In this document: positions 40,951-43,507 of the stretch, piece by piece
Position numbering within the stretch: position 1 is the stretch's first letter
Layout of the letters: every line of letters starts with the position of its first letter
Assembly (NCBI GenBank): GCA_030041455.1
Contig: JASHNV010000159.1
Coordinates: forward strand, 1 to 60,994
Source: Spirochaetia bacterium
Lineage (GTDB): Bacteria > Spirochaetota > Spirochaetia > DAHUYW01
Length of the DNA: 60,994 nt
Direction: 5' to 3'
Translations under genes and position numbers: made by a program
The notes under the pieces: model-generated
Seen by the model: only the letters and a program-made list of their open reading frames with translations
Databases searched by the model: none
Told to the model about the DNA's origin: nothing

Positions 40951-42140
40951 AGCGGGGCGGAAAGTTCGACCAAGGCGTGCTGCTCCTCGTCCTCATCGCG
41001 GTCATCCTCTTCGCGACCGGGATGTTCCTCTACACCCAGATCCGCACGGACAAGGTCTCCGAGCTGCTGAAGAAGGGGGAGACGCTGAAAGTCGCGCTCT
41101 ACGTCGCAGACGGGGACAAGCTCTTGTTCACGGAGGTTTTCGTCTTCAATCCGACGACGGACCGCGCGGCGATCTTCGACATTCCCGGCAACGTGGGCTC
41201 CCTCATCGAGAGCCTGAAGCGCATCGACCGGATCGACGTTCTCTACAAGCGCTCCGACCCCTCGGCCTATCAGAGCGCGGTCGGGGGACTCCTCGGCACC
41301 GAAATCCCGTTCGCGCTGCAGATCGACATCCGCGACCTGCCGAAGCTCGTCGATCTGCTCGGCGGCCTGAAGCTGTTCATTTCCAACGCGGTCTGGCAGG
41401 TCGGCAAGACTCCGATGACGCTCCTCCCGTCGGGCGACCTAGTGCTTGAGGGCAGCAAGGTCAGGGATTATCTCACCTACCGCGACCCGGCCGACACCGA
41501 TATCGAGGTGGTCGACCGGCAGCAGCGCTTCGTTCAAGCGCTCTTCAAGGCGATCGGCGCCAACGCGAGCATGCTCGGCAATCCCGAGGTTTTTCCCTAT
41601 CTGAGGCTCTACCTGAGCACCGACATGAACCGGCGCTCGCTCGTGACCTTCATCGACGCGATGGCGAAGCTCGACACCGATCGCATGGTTTTTCAGAGGG
41701 TGCTCGGCGTCAAGCGCACGGTCGACTCCAAGGAGCTGCTCTTCCCGCACTACGGCGGGAGGCTCCTCCAGCAGACCTGGAGCCAGACGCTCGATACCCT
41801 CGCGAGCGCGGAATCGGCGAGCAATCAGCAGCTCGTGGCCCGCATCCAGATCCTGAACGGAACGCTCGTTCCCGGCCTCGCGCGGAGGACGAGCGAGATC
41901 TACGAGAGCTTCGGCTACATCGTCGCGGCGACGGGAAACGCCGACCGCCAGGACTACGAGAAGACGCTGGTCATCGACCGGCGCGGGGACATGGCGCAGG
42001 CGCAGCGGATCGCGAGCGTCATCAGGTGCACGCGAGTCGAGACCCAGACCGGGACGACGGGGGGCCAGACCCCCGGAATAGACCCGTTCGACGTCACGAT
42101 CGTGATCGGAAAGGACTTCGATGGCAGATACGTCAACTAG
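40947..42140 (+). CDS. LytR-CpsA-Psr family protein with LytR C-terminal domain
   Basis: 397 residues with a GTG start behind AAAGGAG. It has an N-terminal membrane anchor (about 9-31), a periplasmic LCP-like domain (about 45-235; VFNPTTDRAAIFDIPGNVG; LVDLLGGLKLFISNAV; VRDYLTYRDPADTDIEVVDRQQRFVQALF) and a C-terminal LytR_C domain (about 300-390; ARIQILNGTLVPGLARRTSEIYESFGYIV). LCP enzymes attach glycopolymers to the wall. The usual Arg-rich pyrophosphate pocket is only partly recognisable, so catalysis is uncertain in this Gram-negative-type envelope. Confidence 0.88.
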   Translation: MKRGGKFDQGVLLLVLIAVILFATGMFLYTQIRTDKVSELLKKGETLKVALYVADGDKLLFTEVFVFNPTTDRAAIFDIPGNVGSLIESLKRIDRIDVLYKRSDPSAYQSAVGGLLGTEIPFALQIDIRDLPKLVDLLGGLKLFISNAVWQVGKTPMTLLPSGDLVLEGSKVRDYLTYRDPADTDIEVVDRQQRFVQALFKAIGANASMLGNPEVFPYLRLYLSTDMNRRSLVTFIDAMAKLDTDRMVFQRVLGVKRTVDSKELLFPHYGGRLLQQTWSQTLDTLASAESASNQQLVARIQILNGTLVPGLARRTSEIYESFGYIVAATGNADRQDYEKTLVIDRRGDMAQAQRIASVIRCTRVETQTGTTGGQTPGIDPFDVTIVIGKDFDGRYVN

Positions 42141-42486
42141 GGAGACGGCCATCGAGATCGCGCGCTTGATCGAGGAGCACAAGGGCGTCGACACACGGGT
42201 CATCGACCTGTCGGGTCAGACGAGCTGGACCGACTTCTTCGTCATCAGCACCGTGTCGGGAAGCGGTCACCTGCAGGGCGTTCTCCGCCATCTGTACGAG
42301 TTCTTGGACAGCCGGAATCTCTCGCCGCGCAATCGTCACCGACGGGCGTCGGACGACGGCTGGATCCTCGTCGACTGCGGTGGGTGTATCGTGCACTTGA
42401 TGGATAGGGAGAAGCGGGCGTTCTACGACCTCGAGAACCTCTGGTTCTCAGGCGTTCCGGTCAGTCACTCGTCGAAGTCGTCGTAG
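42121..42486 (+). CDS. rsfS: Ribosome silencing factor RsfS
   Basis: 121 residues. It matches the RsfS/Iojap family: DLSGQTSWTDFFVISTVSGSGHLQGV, SDDGWILVDCGGCIVHLM and the YDLENLW end motif. It binds L14 to block subunit joining under starvation. It overlaps the LCP gene by 20 nt. Its last 22 nt overlap the end of the acidic-protein gene on the opposite strand. Confidence 0.95.
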   Translation: MADTSTRETAIEIARLIEEHKGVDTRVIDLSGQTSWTDFFVISTVSGSGHLQGVLRHLYEFLDSRNLSPRNRHRRASDDGWILVDCGGCIVHLMDREKRAFYDLENLWFSGVPVSHSSKSS

Positions 42487-42788
42487 TCGAGACCGTCGTC
42501 ATAGTCGTAGTCGTCGTCGAGATACTCTTCTTCGTCGAGGTCGTCCTCATCCTCGAAGTCTTCGTCGTCCTCGTCCGACTCGTCGGTGAGGTCGTCGTGA
42601 TAGTCGTCCTCTACGCTCTCGTCGTCTTCAAATTCGTCGAAGTCGTCCTCGAAGTCATTCTCGTAATCGTCGAAGTTTTCCTCGTAGTAGTCGTCGTCAT
42701 CGTGATCGTCTTCCGAGAAGTCTTCGTCGTCCTGCATCTGGTAGTGCAAGAGGTTCTCCTCTTCGGACTGCTCTCCGTCAAATGGCAT
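42465..42788 (-). CDS. Extremely acidic low-complexity protein
   Basis: 107 residues, of which I count 41 Asp and 23 Glu (60%) with no Lys and no Arg. Aromatic Tyr/Phe are spread between the acidic runs (DDYENDFEDDF; DDYDYDDGLDYDDFDE). No fold or family is recognised. It is predicted disordered and may mimic nucleic acid or bind cations or basic proteins. It is supported as a gene by its own promoter (42863-42835), a GAGGGTGAT ribosome binding site before the ATG, and a clean start and stop. It converges on rsfS with a 22-nt overlap. The opposite strand shows a mirror-image hydrophobic frame, which is an artefact of the GAC/GAG codons. Confidence 0.75.
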   Translation of the reverse strand: MPFDGEQSEEENLLHYQMQDDEDFSEDDHDDDDYYEENFDDYENDFEDDFDEFEDDESVEDDYHDDLTDESDEDDEDFEDEDDLDEEEYLDDDYDYDDGLDYDDFDE

Positions 42789-42807
42789 GATATCACCCTC
42801 GGTTTCA

Positions 42808-42823: not shown

Positions 42824-42834
42824 CTTTAGACTCA

Positions 42835-42863
42835 ATCTAAGGGTATCAATTTGATAATGTCAA
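42835..42863 (-). promoter_or_regulatory. Promoter of the acidic-protein gene
   Basis: Minus strand: TTGACA (42863-42858), a 17-nt spacer, TTAGAT (42840-42835). The start is about 42828, leader about 40 nt. Confidence 0.65.
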
Positions 42864-42938: not shown

Positions 42939-42966
42939 TTGACAGCTCGGCGGTTTTCGGTATAAT
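42939..42966 (+). promoter_or_regulatory. Consensus sigma-70 promoter with no gene directly behind it
   Basis: TTGACA (42939-42944), a 16-nt spacer and TATAAT (42961-42966): both hexamers perfect, the best promoter in the window. The start is about 42973, but the next gene (spoVG, 43202) has its own promoter, so this one probably drives an RNA. Confidence 0.8.
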
Positions 42967-43201: not shown

Positions 43202-43507
43202 ATGGAGATCACCGACATACGCATCAGGCAGGTCACTGCGGATGGAAAGCTCAAGGCCTACGTGACCGTGACCTTTGATGACTGCTTCGTCGTGCACAAC
43301 GTCAAGGTAATCGAGGGAAAGAACGGCGCCTTCATCGCCATGCCCAGCAGGAAAACGAAGACCGGCGAGTACAAAGATGTCGCTCACCCCATCAACTCGA
43401 GCTTCCGCGGCCTCCTGCAGGAACGAATTCTCCAGGAATATCAAAAGGCGGGGCAGAATCCGGTCGCGGAAGGGGAATCGGACCTCGATGGAGACGAGCA
43501 AGAGTAG
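43202..43507 (+). CDS. spoVG: SpoVG-family nucleic-acid-binding regulator
   Basis: 101 residues. [50 protein letters not shown] and [11 protein letters not shown] are near-identical to the SpoVG family. In Borrelia and Gram-positives SpoVG is a small DNA/RNA-binding global regulator. The C-terminal tail is acidic ([12 protein letters not shown]). The RBS GAGGAGGG fixes the ATG at 43202. It heads the spoVG-tRNA-rplY-pth-tilS-ftsH string. Confidence 0.97.

Follow-up and report, generated by a model that had tools for sequence, protein, structure and literature searches.

The question raised by this locus is whether an open reading frame whose predicted product is nearly all negative charge represents a real gene, and, if so, what kind of protein it encodes and with what it might work. 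The window, that is, the whole stretch of 60,994 nucleotides that was analysed, contains this frame next to rsfS, the gene of the ribosomal silencing factor. Here, the evidence on the locus, on its counterparts in related genomes and on the anatomy of the protein is brought together, and the functions that could be proposed for it are weighed.

The acidic reading frame and its surroundings

The acidic ORF lies at 42465..42788 on the (-) strand, begins with ATG and encodes a protein of 107 aa with a net charge of -64. Translation confirmed the hyperacidic composition described in the initial annotation, with 60% Asp/Glu and neither Lys nor Arg. Ranked by Asp/Glu share, it comes first among the 316 ORFs of at least 50 aa in the window, the runner-up having 30%, and in 20 simulated windows (first-order Markov) the acidity of ORFs stayed at or below 25% throughout. 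The convergent neighbour, rsfS, is located at 42121..42486 (+) (PF02410, E 1.4e-24), and the two genes overlap tail to tail, as had been stated, by 22 bp (42465..42486). Most orthologues keep this overlap; a gap is present instead in families f3, f4, f18 and f25 and in genome G050. The RsfS C-terminus encoded at 42466-42486 (+) is a Ser/Lys tail, HSSKSS, and is Ser-rich in other families. Such tails occur mainly where rsfS overlaps the acidic gene and are apparently imposed by the antisense frame; the presence of 'SSKSS' where the genes overlap suggests that the acidic gene shapes the rsfS tail.

In the window's genus the divergent upstream neighbour is spoVG (43202..43507, (+); PF04026, E 2.8e-38), beyond which a tRNA, L25, pth, tilS and ftsH follow, named from their sequences. 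The Pfam scan of the window neighbours covered rsfS, spoVG and the LytR gene only, and the tRNA was the sole match of an RNA family search at the locus. A promoter of its own and a ribosome-binding site had been assigned to the acidic gene, and both were recovered: a sigma-70-like TTGACA-N18-TAGATT at 42834..42863 (-), retained in the sole same-genus genome examined (G001), and a Shine-Dalgarno-like GAGGGTGAT at 42792..42800 (-) ahead of the ATG. The leader hairpin proposed alongside them was rejected, the leader folding no better than shuffled sequences (z -1.4; 19 of 200 shuffles folded equally well) and its downstream part, including the 3' arm of the hairpin, being unconserved in the same-genus genome. 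A perfect sigma-70 consensus, TTGACA-16-TATAAT (12/12), was also observed at 42939-42966 (+), about 235 bp upstream of spoVG and pointing away from the promoter of the acidic gene.

Orthologues in Spirochaetia and selection on the gene

Orthologues were identified by position. rsfS was located in 60 related genomes, the flanking DNA was scanned for acidic ORFs at the rsfS 3' end, and two further loci were added from a phylum-wide set. Among the resulting 42 orthologues, a hyperacidic ORF stands convergently at the rsfS 3' end, as it does in the window, in 26 of the 34 sampled Spirochaetia families, so relatives of the gene do exist at this locus; the same ORF was found at none of 53 rsfS loci (34 families) in other classes of the phylum. 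A profile search matched 28 of the 148 class genomes with one match each (E down to 1e-19), which is an undercount, as filters penalise biased composition (G031 carries the gene and was missed), and the gene is single copy wherever the profile detects it. Extended to the phylum, the acidic-family profile matched only the window's genome (G000) because it is insensitive on biased composition, and synteny was used instead. A homology search from the acidic-protein alignment gave no tblastn-confirmed relative, probably owing to low-complexity masking, whereas synteny and profile together found the gene in many families.

An exact DNA pattern of the C-terminal motif, described below, replaced this alignment-based search. 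Scanned across the collection, it gave 18 matches, 16 of them Spirochaetes contigs with the gene at rsfS, including named contigs of Spirochaetales, Sediminispirochaeta and Candidatus Marispirochaeta. The other two (L035 and L046) are chance matches in unrelated proteins, a secreted thioredoxin-like lipoprotein and a DEAD-box-helicase-like protein. Judged from the named contigs and the agreeing gene order, the class of the carriers is Spirochaetia. Similarity to the window protein lies 4 to 24 SD above shuffled copies in most families; it does not exceed them in the most divergent ones (f17, f20, f8 and part of f26 and f13), where orthology therefore rests on position and composition. Several draft genomes are 65-90% complete, so single-genome absences are soft, and the rsfS tree, with nine changes and few supported branches, is too weak for placing gains and losses. 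The gene appears absent at rsfS in the sampled genomes that we take to be Borrelia-type and T. pallidum-like, and studies of those pathogens would therefore have missed it.

Purifying selection, which the initial annotation had expected a codon-position substitution test to reveal, was indeed detected. With the start codon and the rsfS overlap removed, dN/dS was 0.12 between the window gene and its same-genus copy and 0.03-0.21 across the other informative pairs. The C-terminal motif is retained in f25 and G050, where rsfS and the acidic gene do not overlap, and is therefore not a by-product of rsfS. These results bear directly on the explanation that the frame is not a gene at all and reflects either an antisense repeat or a by-product arising from the 3' end of rsfS; the overlap and the low complexity of the sequence would suit it, yet it is hardly credible against the low dN/dS outside the overlap, the persistence of the motif without overlap and the conserved promoter. 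At the level of sequence comparison, the orthologues in 26 families and their low dN/dS establish the acidic gene as real and conserved, encoding a predicted-disordered polyanion under sequence-specific purifying selection. The protein family, which has not been described before, is conserved across a whole bacterial class and is easily overlooked because low-complexity filters hide it; the literature searched contained nothing on the protein.

Protein anatomy and comparison with known acidic proteins

Net charge ranges from -35 to -98 across every family. Column counts, made over 17 families each represented by a single sequence, revealed two conserved blocks joined by an acidic linker of variable length and variable D/E make-up. 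The block in the N-terminal half, an aromatic-acidic motif supported by column counts and the spacing test, occupies residues 31-54 of the window protein (DDDYYEENFDDYENDFEDDFDEFE; 42627..42698, (-)) and has the consensus DD[YF]Y[DE][DE][DNS]FDDY[DE]x[DE][FY][DE]DD[FL]D[DE][FIL], in shorter form DD[YF]YxxxFDDYxxx[FY]xDD[FL], also written DDYYxxNFDDYxxDFxDDFxxF. The C-terminal block, supported by column counts and the pattern scan, comprises residues 94-107 (YDYDDGLDYDDFDE; 42468..42509, (-)), with the consensus D[YFL]DYDD[GD][LI]DY[DE]DF[DE]E and the core DYDD[GD]LDY[DE]DF[DE]E. The window protein thus has both features of the proposed family, the FDDY core and the C-terminal DYDDGLDYDDFDE motif. 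F39, D40 and Y42 are essentially invariant, position 40 being Asp in 17/17 families, position 39 Phe in 16/16 aligned and position 42 aromatic in 17/17. In the linker, D and E interchange freely, unlike at the Asp positions of the motif.

The regular Tyr/Phe spacing noted at the outset was borne out across families. With one sequence per family, separations of 4, 7, 8 and 11 are over-represented among F/Y/W pairs (z 2.4 to 3.9) and separations of 1, 2, 5, 6 and 10 under-represented, which is the signature expected of a single helix face; relatedness among the sequences makes the z-scores indicative only. AlphaFold2 returned no fold (pLDDT 58, pTM 0.16), consistent with disorder, and did not predict a long helix across the motif, which counts against the helical reading. 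A general acidic chaperone or hydrotrope, whose charge would keep clients soluble with no specific partner, agrees with the predicted disorder, the extreme charge and the variable linker. Bulk charge, however, requires neither near-invariant aromatic and Asp residues nor helical spacing, and we regard this explanation as rather improbable.

The absence of a named family, as first reported, held in every database searched. Pfam scans of the acidic protein and 23 relatives gave no match, NCBIfam no credible one, and the two matches each in PDB (E 0.3-0.4) and PHROGs (E 0.07-0.1) are noise; phage genomes gave no match either, in a search that is weak because tblastn masks low complexity. The tail of the delta subunit of RNA polymerase is likewise acidic. 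Like the acidic protein, the delta subunit of Firmicutes has a disordered Asp/Glu-rich stretch, its tail (PMC7749165); the acidic protein differs in its phylum and in the lack of an N-terminal delta domain and of any Pfam match. The HARE-HTH/N-terminal delta domain is missing from the protein and its 23 relatives, and identity with the RpoE delta subunit was rejected; of the delta-type tail suggested in the initial annotation, the resemblance in composition is what stands. Accounts in which the protein is a delta-like factor or a divalent-cation buffer draw on the same polyacidic composition and have only a slim chance of being correct, given that neither a delta/HARE-HTH domain nor a metal-site family was matched.

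DNA-mimic proteins, among them AbbA, DinI and Ocr, offer a second comparison. Bacterial and phage mimics such as SPO1 Gp44 (PMC8208478) are, like the acidic protein, small and strongly acidic with aromatics among the acids, but they have folded domains and known targets, whereas the acidic protein is chromosomal, class-wide and without sequence match to them. A stable fold with a phosphate-like charge pattern, by which DNA mimics are recognised, was not predicted for it; membership is compatible by composition only, and the protein may fold on binding. Eukaryotic acidic histone chaperones place aromatic anchors within acidic stretches. The acidic protein also carries aromatics in acidic runs, without demonstrated homology, and most carriers of its gene lack an HBb-type histone, unlike the setting of those chaperones. 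We do not assign the protein to the family of the delta subunit, of the known DNA mimics or of the histone chaperones.

Candidate functions and partners

The function that we favour, at somewhat less than an even chance, is that of a mimic or chaperone: a disordered polyanion whose aromatic-acidic segment would become an amphipathic helix when bound to a basic protein that itself binds nucleic acid. The gene product would be a small, cytosolic, intrinsically disordered polyanion, ancestral in the class Spirochaetia. The aromatic stripe of the motif in the N-terminal half, at helical spacing, could form an amphipathic acidic helix against the basic nucleic-acid-binding surface, the C-terminal DYDDGLDYDDFDE peptide may serve as a second anchor, and the variable acidic linker would contribute non-specific electrostatic affinity. 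In this way the cell would make its own mimic of nucleic acid, or its own acidic chaperone, by which the basic partner could be shielded, delivered or displaced. Charge, dN/dS, specific motif residues, helical spacing and predicted disorder were counted in favour, together with the single copy and the lack of an enzyme or domain family match. Counted against it are that no partner emerged from histone distribution, HU co-occurrence or the operon neighbour, and that the sole conserved operon neighbour, a CheX-like phosphatase, is not nucleic-acid-binding. The nucleic-acid mimic or basic-protein sponge suggested initially accordingly fits the anatomy, but its extension to histone as a general partner is contradicted by distribution, as set out below.

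A more specific form, which we put forward only tentatively, is a class-specific, vertically inherited chromosomal nucleic-acid mimic, disordered, whose aromatic-striped acidic helix would fold onto a single basic protein, itself conserved, of the nucleoid, the ribosome or the transcription machinery. If this is true, Spirochaetia own a regulator found nowhere else so far. In this family, nearly complete negative charge and sequence-specific selection come together naturally in one compact bacterial protein, which makes it a ready test case for the use by bacteria of acidic chaperones or mimics on basic proteins of their own.

The operon neighbour points in another direction. In 11 families the acidic gene is immediately preceded, on its own strand, by a CheX-like gene (PF13690, E 5e-13), at a distance of mostly 5-125 bp (loci L013, L014, L015, L018, L021, L023, L027, L028, L049, L058 and others). 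Its subfamily is distinct by score (>100 bits vs <=83 for other CheX) and occurs in 18 of the 60 genomes, always adjoining the acidic gene; the operon is likely ancestral. E-x2-N is the catalytic motif of CheX/CheC phosphatases and is intact in these proteins. Pfam detects no CheX, CheC or CheD domain in the acidic protein, which sets it apart from the components of CheX/CheC phosphatase operons. It could nonetheless be a partner or regulator of the phosphatase in a response-regulator module, the window's lineage having lost the phosphatase. The subfamily never occurs without the acidic gene (0/18; Fisher p 0.0004), always stands beside it and keeps E-x2-N; on the other side, 15 of the 26 families, including that of the window, keep the acidic gene without it, and common descent alone could account for the association because the tree offers too few independent contrasts. 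We consider this partnership unlikely.

For the mimic or chaperone, the basic partner examined most closely is a histone. A histone of 62 aa, of the 'bacterial dimer' (HBb) type, is encoded in the genome to which the window belongs (G000:C155:56326-56508, locus L088); its best PDB matches are the HBb-type chains 8fvx/8cmp (E 5e-12), and a histone chaperone role was therefore worth testing. A role of the acidic protein in chaperoning or capping this histone is, on the distribution, improbable. Of the 40 genomes carrying the acidic gene, 13 have such a histone, compared with 2 of 18 without it (Fisher p 0.11). Histone as the general partner was ruled out because 27 of the 40 carriers have no HBb-type histone and because the histone also occurs where the acidic gene is missing (two genomes; family f7); no DUF1931 histone fills the gap in histone-less carriers. 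HU, found in 58 of 60 genomes, offers a possible target class. Families from which the acidic gene has been lost possess it to the same extent, so its co-occurrence gives no positive support; near-universal and uninformative in this respect, HU is a possible partner. With its patchy distribution, the histone is a poorer fit than a general housekeeping partner, for example HU or a ribosomal protein. HBb-type histones were observed in 36 of the 148 sampled Spirochaetia genomes, and bacterial dimer histones have already been reported for this class (PMC11390915).
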